DNA from: Hydrogenophaga sp.
Lineage (GTDB): Bacteria > Pseudomonadota > Gammaproteobacteria > Burkholderiales > Burkholderiaceae_C
Direction: 5' to 3'
DNA: 64,000 nt
Assembly: GCA_018333605.1 (NCBI GenBank)
Contig: JAGXSV010000022.1
Location: forward strand, 48,770 to 112,769
Part shown: piece after piece, positions 4,346 to 63,656 of the stretch
Position numbering within the stretch: position 1 is the stretch's first letter
Layout: each line of letters starts with the position of its first letter
The notes under the pieces: generated by a model
What the model saw: only the letters and a program-made list of their open reading frames with translations
What the model was told of the DNA's origin: nothing
Database searches by the model: none
Translations under genes and position numbers: made by a program

Positions 4346-4592
4346 TGGCCACATCCGGCACCCCAAAATGCCATCGCCATGACAAGCCTTCGCGCCGCAC
4401 GCCATTCATCGCCATGAGCGCCACGGTCTCGCCCGCCCTGTGCCACCGGGGCGCACAGCCGCCCGCATGTGCCCGACGCGCACCACACGCACCAGCACTG
4501 GACGAGAACACCAAGCAAGAAAAGGGCGTATCTGTATTTGCATGACGGCCCCGACGCCCCGCTGCGTGGTGCGGTCGCCCACCCCGCGCGGC

Positions 4593-5481
4593 ATGTTTGA
4601 CCGTCGCCAGCTGTGGGCGATAGCCTTGTCGGTGGCGCTGCACCTCGCTGCACCTCGCTGCAGCGGCGTTGCTCGTTGCGGGCTTCAGCCCCCGCCTGCC
4701 TGAGCCCACACCGCCCCATGAAGACACCGTGCTCACCCTGGTGGTGATACCGGCCCCCGTGCAGCCGCTCGCCGGGCCACCACCCGCAAAAGGCCTGTTC
4801 CCGGTGCCCGTGCCCAGGCAAGACCTGGCCACGGCCAAAGCCCGCCAGCCCGCTGCACCACCGCCCGACACCGCGCCTGCGGCCACCCGGCTACCCGGCC
4901 AGGCCTTCATGGACGCGCCGCCCGCGCCCACCGCCCAGGAATGGGCCATGGCCGCCACCTACACGCTCAAAAACGGCAAGCGCTACCGCCACCACTGGGG
5001 CCAGCACGTGCGCAGCCTGATGGGCGCCGCACGCGAAGGTCCCGAGCAAGGCGCCGTGCGCTTTCGCATCGAAATCGCGCCCAGCGGCCAGCTCGCCCGG
5101 CTCGACACCCTGTGGACCACCTCGCCCGCTGTGGAACAACGCGCCCGCCAGGCCGTGCAGCGCATGCCGCCGCTGCCGCCCACGCCCAACGGCAAGCCCC
5201 TGGTGTTTGAAAAAACCATCGTGTTTGACGCCTACACCGCCGAGGCCCCACCGCTTTACAAGGACGACTGCGAGCCCGACCCGGTGCAGCACGGCAACCG
5301 CTTCGTGTGGGATGGCCGTTCCCCCCAAACCACCGCTGCCGCCGAAGCGCCAGCACAACCGCTGGACCCCGCCGCCTACGCCGAATGCCTGAAGCAACTG
5401 CCCCAAGACAGCATCGAAGCCGAAGCCGCCAGCGACGAGCGCCAGCAAAAGCAATGGGCCTCGCCCACGCTGGGGCGTTGA
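4593..5481 (+). pseudogene. TonB-family energy transducer, disrupted by a 10-bp tandem duplication in the N-terminal anchor
   Basis: MFDRRQLWAIALSVALHLAA from ATG 4593 is in a different frame from ...LLVAGFSPRLPEPTPP (4669..5481); removing one CTGCACCTCG unit fuses them into one anchor. TonB_C-like region GAVRFRIEIAPSGQLARLDTLWTTSPAVEQRARQAVQRMPPLPP. Confidence 0.7.
4638..4662. repeat. 10-bp tandem repeat (2.5 copies of CTGCACCTCG)
   Basis: CTGCACCTCGCTGCACCTCGCTGCA read directly. Confidence 0.95.
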
Positions 5482-5527
5482 GTTCTCACACGAATTTCGT
5501 TTGAGGCGGCCGCAAAATGCGACCACC

Positions 5528-5552
5528 ATTGTAGCTCTTATGTAGCTACAAT
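5528..5552. promoter_or_regulatory. candidate antitoxin operator
   Basis: ATTGTAGCT-CTTATGT-AGCTACAAT perfect 9-bp inverted repeat; contains the TGTAGCTACA palindrome plus an extra TGTAGCT half-site; upstream of the RelB/DinJ ORF. Confidence 0.6.
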
Positions 5553-5579
5553 TAGTCGCTGATTCAACTGGAGAAAATC

Positions 5580-5813
5580 ATGATGACTGTCGACGTTCGT
5601 GCCCGTGTGGAACCCGAACTCAAGCGGGACGCAGCGGCGGTGCTGGCGGCCTCAGGTCTCGATGTGAGTACGGCGATTCGCTTGTTTTTGCGCAGCGTGG
5701 TCGAGACGGGCGGCTTGCCCATGGCCTTGCCGCGTGCCAATGCCAAGACGCTCGCCGCGATCAAAGCGGCCAAGGCCGGCAAGGCAACCAAAGTCTCGCT
5801 GGACGATCTCTGA
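5580..5813 (+). CDS. type II toxin-antitoxin system RelB/DinJ family antitoxin
   Basis: MMTVDVRARVEPELKRDAAAVLAASGLDVSTAIRLFLRSVVETGGLPM; RHH-like DinJ pattern. Confidence 0.9.
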   Translation: MMTVDVRARVEPELKRDAAAVLAASGLDVSTAIRLFLRSVVETGGLPMALPRANAKTLAAIKAAKAGKATKVSLDDL

Positions 5814-5825
5814 CCGTAGCCGCAG

Positions 5826-6120
5826 ATGCCCAGGGATCTGAAAGAAACCAGCCAGTTCAAGTCGGATAAGAAACGCATCCAGCGTTCAGGCCGCCACGAC
5901 TGGGAAAAGATGCGCAAGGTGGTGGGGTGCTGATGCAAGACCAGCCCCTGCCCGAGCGCAACCGCGACCGCGACCATGCCCTGACGGGCGACTATGTGGG
6001 CACCCGCGAATGCCATGTGGCACCCGACTGGCTGTTGATTTATTTGAAGACCGGTGACACACAAACCGGGTCGATTACCCTGATTCGCACCGGATCGCAC
6101 AGCGAACTGTTTTGCAACAG
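5826..6120 (+). pseudogene. YafQ-family mRNA interferase toxin, split by frameshift
   Basis: Frame A from 5826: MPRDLKETSQFKSDKKRIQRSGRHDWEKMRKVVGC*; frame B from 5927/5933: MQDQPLPERNRDRDHALTGDYVGTRECHVAPDWLLIYLKTGDTQTGSITLIRTGSHSELF. Confidence 0.8.
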
Positions 6121-6591: not shown

Positions 6592-6645
6592 ACGCAGCCC
6601 CCGACAAGGGTGGGCGGTAGGGCCCGGCTTCTATCATCGGAGCCC

Positions 6646-9600
6646 ATGCACCACACAAACCCCCCAGGGACCCCCACCACCGACGACAGCGCTGTCACCG
6701 CTGCCGCTGCAGGCTTCATCCAGCGCTGGCACGGCGTGGCCGCTTCTGAGCTGGCTACTTCGCAGAGCTTTGTCATGGAGCTGTGCGCGCTGCTGGGCGT
6801 GGCGCCTCCCGCTCACGAACCCCATTACCAGTTTGAGCGGCCCATCACCTTCCAGCATGGCGACGGCTCCACCAGCGCCGGGCGGGTGGACTGCTACAAG
6901 CGTGGCCACTTTGTGTGGGAGAGCAAAAAACTCAAGGCCGGCATCACCGCCCAGCAAGCCGGCGCCGCGCCCACCAAAGCCTTTGACGACGCGCTGCTCA
7001 AAGCCCGCACCCAGGCCGAAAACTACGCGCGCGCCTTGCCGGCTGCCGAAGGCCGGCCGCCCTTTGTGGTGGTGGTCGACGTGGGCCACGTCATTGAGCT
7101 TTACGCCGAATTCACCCGCAGCGGCGCCACCTACACGCCGTACCCCGACCCGCGCAGCCACCGCATTCGCCTGGCGCAGCTGGCCGACTCCGCCATCCGC
7201 GCGCGGCTCAAAGCCCTGTGGACCGACCCGCTCAGCCTCGACCCCTCGCGCGTCAGCGCCAAGGTGACGCGCGCCGTGGCCGCCGAGCTGGCCAACCTGG
7301 CCAAAAGCCTGGAAGCCGCCGGCCACCGCCCCGAGACCGTGGCCGCCTTTCTCACACGCTGCCTCTTCAGCATGTTTGCCGAAGACGTGGGTCTGCTCCC
7401 CGACAACCAGCAGCCCGGCGCCACGGACACCGGCAGCTTTGCCCACCTGCTCAAAACCTACCGCGAACAGCCCGCCACCCTGGCGCAAATGCTCAAGGTG
7501 TTTTGGCAAGGCATGGACGTGGGCGGCTTCAACGCGGCCATTGCGCAAGACGTGTTGCGCTTCAACGGCAAGCTTTTCAAAGGCGCCGGGGTGGACGGCT
7601 ACGTGTTGCCGCTCAACACCACGCAAATTGACGGCCTGCTGCGCGCCGCCAGCGCCAACTGGAAAGAAGTGGAGCCGGCCATTTTTGGCACCCTGCTGGA
7701 ACGCGCGCTCGACCCCACCGAACGCCACGCCCTGGGCGCCCACTACACGCCGCGCGCCTATGTGGAGCGGCTGGTGTTGCCCACCGTGGTGGAGCCCCTG
7801 CGCGCCGACTGGGCCAACGCCCAGGCTGCCGCCGTGGTGCTTGCGCGTGAGGCGGATGAGCTGGACGGCAAAAAGCGCGAAGCCAAACTGGAAGAAGCCC
7901 GCGCCGAGCTGCGCCGCTTTCACCACCAGCTCTGCACCACCCGCGTGCTCGACCCGGCCTGCGGCAGCGGCAACTTTTTGTATGTGACGCTGGAACACCT
8001 GAAGCGCCTGGAAGGCGAGGTGATGAACCAGCTCGAAGCCTTTGGCGAAACGCAAGACAAGCTGGGCCTGGAAGGCGAAACCGTCACCCTGCAACAGCTG
8101 CGCGGCATCGAGCTGAACCAGCGCGCCGCCGCCCTGGCCGAGCTGGTGCTGTGGATTGGCTGGCTGCAGTGGCATGTGCGCACGCGCGGCCTGGCCAGCG
8201 TGGCCGAGCCCGTGGTGCACGACTACGGCAACATTGAGCACCGCGACGCCGTGCTGGCCTACGACCGGGCCGAACCTGCGCTGGACGCTGCGGGCAACAC
8301 CATCACCCGCTGGGACGGCACCACGTTCAAAACCCACCCCGTCACCGCCGAGCCCGTGCCCGATGAAGCCGCGCAGGTGGTGCAGTGGGCCTATGTGAAC
8401 CCGCGCCCGGCGGAGTGGCCGGCGGCGGATTTCATCGTGGGCAACCCGCCGTTCATTGGCGCGGGCGCCATGCGCGCCGCGCTGGGCGACGGGTATGCGC
8501 AAACGCTGCGCGCCGCCTGGCCCGAGGTGCCCGAGAGCGCGGACTTTGTGATGTATTGGTGGCACCACGCTGCCGCCCAGGTGCGCGCGGGCAGCGCCCG
8601 GCGCTTTGGTTTCATCACCACCAACAGCCTGCGCCAGACGTTCAACCGCCGCGTGATCGAAGCGCACCTGAGCGCGCCCAAGAACCCGCTCACGCTTGCC
8701 TTTGCCGTGCCCGACCACCCGTGGGTGGACGGCGCGGGCGACGCCAATGTGCGCATTGCCATGAGCGTGGGCGAATGCCCCGCCGCGCGGGCCGAGCCTG
8801 CTGAAGCCGAGCCTGGGCGCTTGCTCAGCGTGCGCGAAGAGCACGCCACCGGCGACGGCGAGGTGGCGGTGACACTGGACGAACAACGCGGCCTGCTGCA
8901 CGCCGACCTGCGCTTGGGTGCCAACGTGGCGAGCGCCAAGCCGCTGCGGGCCAACGCGGGCGTGTCCTCGCCCGGCGTGAAGCTGCACGGCGCGGGCTTC
9001 ATCGTCACGCGCGAGGAAGCCGCTGCCTTGCTCCCTCTCCCGCTGGCGGGAGAGGGCGGGGGTGAGGGTACGCGAGCGGCAACGCCGCTCATCCGCGAAT
9101 ACCGCAACGGCCGCGACCTCATGGCCACCTCGCGCGATGTGCTGGTGATCGACGCCTTTGGCCTGAGCGCCGAGCAGCTGCGCGAGCGCTTCCCGGAGGT
9201 GTTTCAGTGGCTGGTGGAGCGGGTAAAGCCGGAGCGCGATCAGAACAACCGAGCGATCTACCGCGACAACTGGTGGATCTTTGGCGAACCGCGTAAAGAC
9301 CTGCGTCCGGCGCTTATTGGTCTGCCGCGCTACGTCGCCACCGTCGAAACAGCCAAGCACCGCACGTTCCAGTTTCTCGACGCCAGCGTGCTGCCCGACA
9401 ACATGTTGATTGCCATTGCGTCAGACGACGCGGCGTGGCTGGGCGTGCTGTCGAGCCAAGTGCATGTTGAATGGGCGCTGGCTTCCGGCGGAACGCTGGA
9501 GGATCGGCCGCGCTACAACAAAACCCGCTGCTTCGAAACCTTCCCTTTCCCCAGCGACGACACCGGCCTCACGCCCGCGCTCACCGAGCGCATCCGCCAG

Positions 9601-10413
9601 CTCGCCGAGCAGCTGGACGCGCACCGCAAGGCGCGCCAGGCGGCGTTTGAATCCGTCACGCTCACGGGGATGTACAACGTGCTGGACAAGCTGCGCCGCC
9701 ACGAGCCGCTGACCGCCAAAGACAAAACCCTGCACGAGCAGGGCCTGGTGAGCGTGTTGCAAAGCCTGCACGACGAGCTGGACGCCGCCGTGTTGATGGC
9801 CTACGGCTGGAGCGACCTGGGCGCCGTGCCGTGGAGCGACGAAGCGGCGCGAGCCGCGTGGACCGAGACCCTGCTGGAGCGGCTGGTGGCGCTGAACGCG
9901 AAGCGCGCGGCGGAAGAAGCGGCCGGCATGGTGCGCTGGCTGCGGCCTGCGTTTCAAGACCCGGCCCGGCGCGCGGCCGCCGAGACGGCGCAAGGGCTCC
10001 CTTCGACAGGCTCAGGGCGATCGGGGATCCAGGCTCAGCCCGAACGGGGCGGCGAGCAGGCGGGCATTGACGGTGTGGAGAGCGAGGCCGAAGCACAATC
10101 CCGCGCCGAAGCTACCCGCGCAGACACCCGCGAGAGCGCTGACGACAGCGCCCAGCCCGCCGCAGCGCTCCCGCCCGCAGCCGCCACCACCACAATTACC
10201 CAGCCCTGGCCGCCCACGCTACCCGAGCAGGTGCGCGCGGTGGCGCAGTTGCTGGGCGCCAGCCCGGCCCCGCTGCCGCTGGCGGCCATCGAAGCCAGCT
10301 TCAAAGGCAAAGGCCCGTGGAAGAAAGGCTTGCCCCGCATTTTGGACACGCTGGAAGCCCTGGGCCGCGCCCAGCGCGTGAGCGGTGCCGGGGGCGCGGG
10401 CTGGCGGGGCTGA
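6646..10413 (+). CDS. MmeI-like type IIL/IIG restriction-modification fusion (class I SAM-dependent DNA methyltransferase with N-terminal PD-(D/E)XK-like domain)
   Basis: D-X9-E-X-K in [17 protein letters not shown]; MTase motif [26 protein letters not shown] in [12 protein letters not shown]-terminal [20 protein letters not shown] region. Confidence 0.87.
9031..9069 (+). repeat. REP-like element (family A variant) inside a coding sequence
   Basis: CTCCCTCTCCCGCTGGCGGGAGAGGGCGGGGGTGAGGGT; encodes [13 protein letters not shown] in frame. Confidence 0.75.
9997..10050 (+). repeat. CCCTTCGACAGGCTCAGGGCGA-type intergenic repeat inside a coding sequence
   Basis: GCTCCCTTCGACAGGCTCAGGGCGATCGGGGATCCAGGCTCAGCCCGAACGGGGC. 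Confidence 0.7.
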
Positions 10414-26990: not shown

Positions 26991-27637
26991 TCAGGGCGTG
27001 CCGCGCACCAGGTCGAGCGTGGCGGTCATGCGACCGGCAAACACCAGGTCGAGCTGTGCGCCGGTGCGGCTGTTGTTCACCGTGACGCCGGGTTGTCCGG
27101 CTGGTTGGGTGCCTTTCAGGCGCAGCAGGCCGTCGGGCCACTGAAAGGCCAGACGGGCCTGCATGGGCAGGTAGCCGTCGAGGTAGCGGCGCATCAGCGG
27201 CCCGGCGTGCAGGCGCCAGGTGTGTTCGTCTACCCGTTCCAGGGCTTGGAAGTGAGGTTGATGCAGGCGCTGCCGCCGCGCTTGACCTGGGTCAGTTCCA
27301 CCAGGTGGCCCTGCACCTGGGCGCGCTCCACGCCCTCGGTGGACGCAATTTCAATGCGCTGCATCCGCTGGGGGTTGAAGGCGATCACGATCTTGTCGTT
27401 CGGGTCCAGCTGGTGGTGGCAGGTGCTCAGCCGCACCACGCCGCTGCTCAGGCTGTCGCCGCTGATCGCCACCCGCGAAGCGCAGTGGTAAGCGCCGGGG
27501 TCGGGGCGTTCGCTCAAAAAGCGCAACTCGCCCGCCGGCGCCACGTCGGACAGTTCCAGCGCCTGCGCCGCCAGGGGCAGGGCGAAAACCAACAGCAACA
27601 GCGGGCGATACAGTCGATCGGGGTGGGCAAGGGCCAT
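26991..27637 (-). pseudogene. secreted hypothetical protein split by a frameshift near 27250
   Basis: MALAHPDRLYRPLLLLVFALPLAAQALELSDVAP...GSACINLT(SKPWNG*) continues in another frame as FQALERVDEHTWRLHAGPLMRRYLDGYLPMQARLAFQWPDGLLRLKG...LVRGTP*. Confidence 0.6.
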
Positions 27638-27783
27638 GGCAGGCTCCAGAAAATGCTTGCAACCGGGGGGCTTGTCCCCATGTAATACGGGTTTGGGCTT
27701 CTGAACGGTCCGTTGTTGGACAAATCGGCTCGCCTTGTGTCGATCATTGTGGAACTCCACTGGCCCGTCGGGCTCTTTCTACC

Positions 27784-62532: not shown

Positions 62533-63656
62533 TCAGGCCAAACGCTGGGGTGTGGGCGCTGGTCGGCCCAGTCCGCGTCCGCTGGCGCGTGCCCGCTTCA
62601 GCAGGAACCGCACGCTGCCGATGTTGAGCAGGTTGAAGCCGATGCCGGTGATGAAAGCGGGGCCTGGCAAGAGCCGGTCAGGTCGAAGATGGCGCCCCGC
62701 ATCCACCCGCCCAGTGCCATGCCGAACAGCGTGGCCATGAGCACCGTGCCCTCGCGCCCCGGCTTGGGCGGGTGGGAAATGCTCGCGCACGATCAGTGCG
62801 TAGCTTGGCACGATGCCGTCCCGGAACAGGCCGACCATGCCCGAAATGAGGTGCCGCGGCACCAGCCCGTCGAAGGGCAAGAACTTCAGCAGCGCCGCGC
62901 CTTGCACCACCGCGCCCGGCAGCAGGGTGCGAAGGCCACCAAGCTGGTCCGAGATCCAGCCCGAGATGGGGCGGCTGGCGATGCCCATGCCCCGCATGAC
63001 CGACAGCATTGCGGCGCCACGCGTTGTGCCAAAGCCCAGGTCGTTTTCCACCGGTCCGTGCGGCATCGACATGGTCACGCAGCACGACACGCCCGCCACA
63101 CGCAGCAGCACCTGCAGCGTGCCGGGCGGGAGGCCGAGCGGTCGTGCTTCGGGCCGGCTGGCGCAGGGGTGGTTGGGCGTGGCCAGCTCGGGCCTCGGCA
63201 GGCAGTTGCCGCTCATGCCGATCGCCAGCGCGATGCTCCAGCGCTGCGTAAACCAGCGCGAGGTGTCGGCCACCAGCGGGGCAAAGGTGGCCGAGGTGAC
63301 GAGCAGTCCGATCAGGATGCCTTGCGCCAGGCTGAACTGCCACAGGTTCTGGGCCGCTCCTGCGGCGATGAGACCGAGGCCCAGCCCCAACGCGCCGCAA
63401 GCACCGGCACCATCACGCCAAAGTGGTCTGACAGCCGGCCCTTGAGGATGCCGCCCAGGCCAAAGCCCACCCTCGTGGGCATGTAGGGTCGTGAGGCGTC
63501 ACCGCGCGCGACATCGCAGTCGGCCGGTAGGGGCGGCAGCACCACCGTGACCGAAGACATGACCACGCCACCCAGCGTCACGAGCGCCTGCGACACCACC
63601 AGCCGAAACCACGCGTCAGCCGATTCGGCCGTGGCGGCGGGCGGGCTCGGGGTCAT
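62533..63656 (-). pseudogene. MFS transporter, degraded (frameshifts and apparent internal deletion)
   Basis: MFS segments spread over three frames: 63312..63656, 62533..63390, 62678..63400 (e.g. VTLGGVVMSSVTVVLPPL; GILIGLLVTSATFAPLVADTSRWFTQRWSIALAIGMSGN; GLRTLLPGAVVQGAALLKFLPFDGL). Confidence 0.75.

Follow-up and report, generated by a model that had tools for sequence, protein, structure and literature searches.

We found that an exact 10-bp tandem duplication splits the reading frame of a TonB-like gene in a metagenome-assembled draft genome of a Hydrogenophaga relative, and that the related loci spanning the N-terminus carry the gene in one continuous frame free of the duplication. A recent slippage mutation is probably the cause of the split. 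The locus lies in a window of 64 kb (the whole stretch of DNA that was analysed), and its features are as follows (coordinates are those of the window).

4636..4662, + strand: exact tandem duplication, CGCTGCACCT x 2.7 (27 bp, 10-bp unit)
4593..4703, + strand: 5' piece, containing a short N-terminus, the first part of the signal anchor and then out-of-frame residues, with the stop at 4701-4703
4624..5481, + strand: 3' piece, an open frame containing the remaining anchor, a proline-rich spacer, a TonB-like C-terminal domain and a conserved tail
5029..5226, + strand: TonB-type C-terminal domain (TIGR01352, PF03544, AlphaFold2/Foldseek)

The tandem tract and the split reading frames

The tract at 4636-4662 reads CGCTGCACCT CGCTGCACCT CGCTGCA, so that the 7-bp word CGCTGCA is found at 4636-4642, 4646-4652 and 4656-4662. 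The original prediction had recognized the exact 10-bp duplication and had placed 2.5 copies at 4638-4662; the copy number and the left boundary need correction, as there are 2.7 copies starting at 4636. When units of 4 bp or longer and lag-match runs of 11 or more are considered, this is the sole exact tandem tract in the window. Its run of 17 exceeds the chance expectation; runs in order-3 Markov simulations of the window (n=30, units of at least 4 bp) reached at most 15. Together with ~315 kb sampled as stretches of the source genome beyond the window, ~379 kb was searched (window plus sampled contigs), in which the other exact tracts mostly have 6-bp units, the remaining ones are a few of 4, 7, 9, 30 and 66 bp and a G-run, and there is no second true 10-bp unit. 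The 20-bp two-unit core occurs only once across the whole draft genome.

Translation from ATG 4593 gives MFDRRQLWAIALSVALHLAAPRCSGVARCGLQPPPA, which ends at the stop at 4701-4703 (for this 5' piece, ATG 4543, in the same frame, is a second candidate start). This frame encodes MFDRRQLWAIALSVALHLAA first and PRCSGVARCGLQPPPA next; the frame breaks inside the 27-bp tract, and translation terminates 16 codons beyond the break. The 3' frame, which overlaps the 5' frame across 4624-4703, contains no additional stops, and its earliest common start codon, TTG 4669, excludes most of the anchor. Skipping one unit gives the continuous frame MFDRRQLWAIALSVALHLAAAALLVAGFSPRLPEPTPPHEDTV... These observations agree with the earlier claims that the duplication frameshifts a TonB-like anchor (the 5' and 3' frames are indeed split at the tract) and that removing one unit joins the anchor to the downstream ORF. 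It had also been claimed that the copy number sets the frame, with one unit in frame, which is correct except that one unit is not the only such state, since 1, 4, 7... units all restore the frame. A promoter scan of 4346-5600 found no sigma-70 site.

The TonB-like gene and its relatives

The gene product is predicted to be a TonB-like energy transducer or a TolA-like relative, because of its profile scores and the Foldseek matches to TonB/TolA C-terminal domains. The 3' product scores 28.8 bits with TIGR01352 (above the cut-off of 27.1) and 21.4 bits with PF03544 (Pfam TonB_C; slightly below the cut-off of 24.6). AlphaFold2, given ten sequences, produced a model of low overall quality (mean pLDDT 52.9) whose core, residues 131-180, averages ~80, and according to Foldseek the modelled C-terminal domain has a TonB-type fold: the top matches are the C-terminal domains of HasB, FusB, TonB and TolA (probability 1.00, E no better than 3e-3). 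A sequence search of the PDB using the alignment retrieved no TonB entry. The gene shares with TonB family energy transducers (TIGR01352, PF03544), which power outer-membrane receptors together with ExbB/ExbD, the N-terminal anchor (in the orthologs), the proline-rich spacer and the TonB-type C-terminal fold, and differs from them in its weak family scores and in a conserved C-terminal extension containing two cysteines. The membrane anchor is in the same frame as the TonB domain in the orthologs but not in the window, where the duplication splits the anchor. A separate and much stronger TonB_C protein (82.6 bits, open frame of 248 aa) is encoded on another contig of the draft genome (C75), so the gene in the window is probably a paralogue, and its loss would be tolerable.

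Homologs are found in 17 out of 67 genus genomes (including the source genome), so the gene is patchily distributed within the genus, some of whose genomes are incomplete; the homologs with names come from Hydrogenophaga metagenome-assembled genomes. A total of 17 related loci span the N-terminus, three of which duplicate the same genomes from another collection, leaving 14 distinct genomes (one of them belongs to another family of the order). All 17 loci have a single continuous frame without the tandem duplication (e.g. RRWALGLSVALHLAAAGL), and the two-unit core is found in none of the 66 other genus genomes even when one mismatch is allowed, and therefore the lesion is private to the source metagenome assembly. 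The closest orthologs with a full N-terminus share 76-78% identity over the matched part, and a search for near-identical strains turned up other species alone; with the nearest such orthologs at most 78% identical, the event is not finely datable.

We also considered whether relatives conserve the two units and start elsewhere, the case that the original prediction had itself named as contrary to its claim. Such an arrangement is absent from the 17 related loci and was ruled out, the orthologs all being single-frame without the duplication.

Near the TonB-like gene there is an MmeI-type restriction-modification gene (6610-10413), of which only a short piece resembling the C-terminus is left beside the ortholog at one related locus (L025:5811-5995).

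Probable slippage, age and possible assembly error

The duplication probably arose when replication slipped once between two copies of the 7-bp word CGCTGCA that were separated by 3 bp within the anchor codons of the ancestor (Ala-Leu-His-Leu-Ala-Ala). Such slippage would have added exactly 10 bp and put the TonB-like energy-transducer gene out of frame, in the source lineage or in the sampled strain. The one-unit sequence would indeed carry CGCTGCA twice at this spacing, and such a 7-bp direct repeat is enough for one slippage event. If the 3' frame restarted at TTG 4669 or GTG 4729, its product would have no membrane anchor and therefore should not function as TonB. The 7-bp seed is not conserved: it is missing from all orthologs, with 6 of the 7 bp found in one species (two CGCTGC copies at lag 10 in the ortholog L012, whose genome is also that of L025), and in the orthologs other than L012 and L025 the longest direct repeat at that place has another lag. 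Counts in the window of direct repeats of at least 7 bp run to five for lag 10 and to 4-19 for the other lags between 8 and 14; repeats of this kind are thus common, and the seed is unremarkable.

Pairwise dN/dS, which is a blunt test of decay, ranges from 0.30 to 0.47 between the 3' frame and the intact orthologs, toward the upper part of the values among the intact orthologs themselves (0.17-0.47). As these values fall inside the intact-ortholog range, the 3' frame looks still constrained, with no clear decay. Given also that it contains no further stops, the event is likely to be recent or to be an assembly or strain artefact, and an old pseudogene does not seem to fit. Among the options raised at the outset, recent inactivation is the best fit; the stronger TonB_C protein on C75 and the frame break in the neighbouring YafQ toxin gene also speak for it.

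The gene could instead be intact in the organism and appear broken through an assembly or consensus error, or because strain variants in the metagenome were merged into a chimera. We consider this unlikely, and the leading alternative all the same: the source is a draft (62% complete, 83 contigs), the same 64 kb contains at least three further frame breaks (in YafQ near 5925, near 27240 and near 63397), and the 3' frame is without relaxed constraint. However, assembly errors are usually 1-nt indels in homopolymers, and an exact 10-bp insertion is not of this type; usual reads are all longer than the 27-bp tract with its insertion, and the other frame breaks in the window are not necessarily errors.

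As to these other breaks, a RelB/DinJ-type antitoxin (PF04221, 51 bits) is followed by a YafQ toxin gene that is split across two frames near 5925, i.e., an antitoxin adjoins a broken toxin at 5556-6110; positions 2-30 of the YafQ Pfam profile match in one frame (weak, E 0.04) and positions 32-87 in another (strong). On the minus strand, the frame at 27000-27660 apparently breaks near 27240-27250 and resumes in another frame, and a gene at 62599-63640 that, judged by eye, probably encodes a transporter is frame-broken near 63397, not far from the end of the contig. The latter two were found by a two-strand coding-frame scan, which replaced a single-strand coding-frame Viterbi scan that had been swamped by shadow frames of the opposite strand. 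In the ~315 kb outside the window the two-strand scan revealed no equally convincing break, a manual and unblinded judgement that does not amount to a rate.

Possible reversibility and phase variation

The original prediction was headed by a possible slipped-strand, phase-variable switch of the TonB-like anchor, on with one unit and off with two. The 17-bp direct overlap of the two units might permit such a switch to revert, so the lesion is in principle revertible by slippage, and there is a precedent in pneumococcus, where spontaneous duplications in capsule genes (type 3 locus, cap8E, tts) cause phase variation (Waite et al. 2001, 2003, as cited in PMC4022640). According to that citing source, a tandem duplication within a reading frame abolishes the protein and is reversible in principle, as here, whereas phase variation was observed in culture there and a single consensus sequence represents the locus here, with no copy-number variation on record. 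The literature precedents for local duplications cut both ways: in Xenorhabdus lrp, local tandem duplications likewise led to loss of function, with units of 26-116 bp, and the lrp mutations (three of them tandem duplications) were selected in late infection, were irreversible and were judged not to be phase variation (PMC6786866). The tract is neither conserved nor recurrent in relatives (17 related loci; 66 other genus genomes), its 7-bp seed is unconserved, short direct repeats like it are commonplace in the window, and the YafQ toxin gene next to it is frame-broken too. We therefore regard the switch as improbable, and the comparison of sequences offers no evidence for an evolved one. It is likewise quite improbable that the 10-bp unit arose recently as a reversible switch of the TonB-like paralogue in this Hydrogenophaga-like lineage, with its on and off states both kept in the natural population.

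Ribosomal +1 frameshifting that joins the two frames, or expression of the 3' ORF alone from TTG 4669 or GTG 4729, is highly improbable, for although the frames overlap over 4624-4703 with CCC CCG four codons ahead of the stop in the 5' frame, a shift there would still swap the second half of the anchor (PRCSGVARCGLQ replacing AAALLVAGFS), no recognised shift motif was found by eye, and no ortholog has the same arrangement.

As it stands, the case is an ordinary kind of mutation, and it cautions that one consensus sequence cannot tell a switch from a lesion. If real, the slippage mutation would be another instance of very short direct repeats causing gene loss through local slippage; if reversible, it would make a small contingency locus on an energy-transducer paralogue in an environmental betaproteobacterium.
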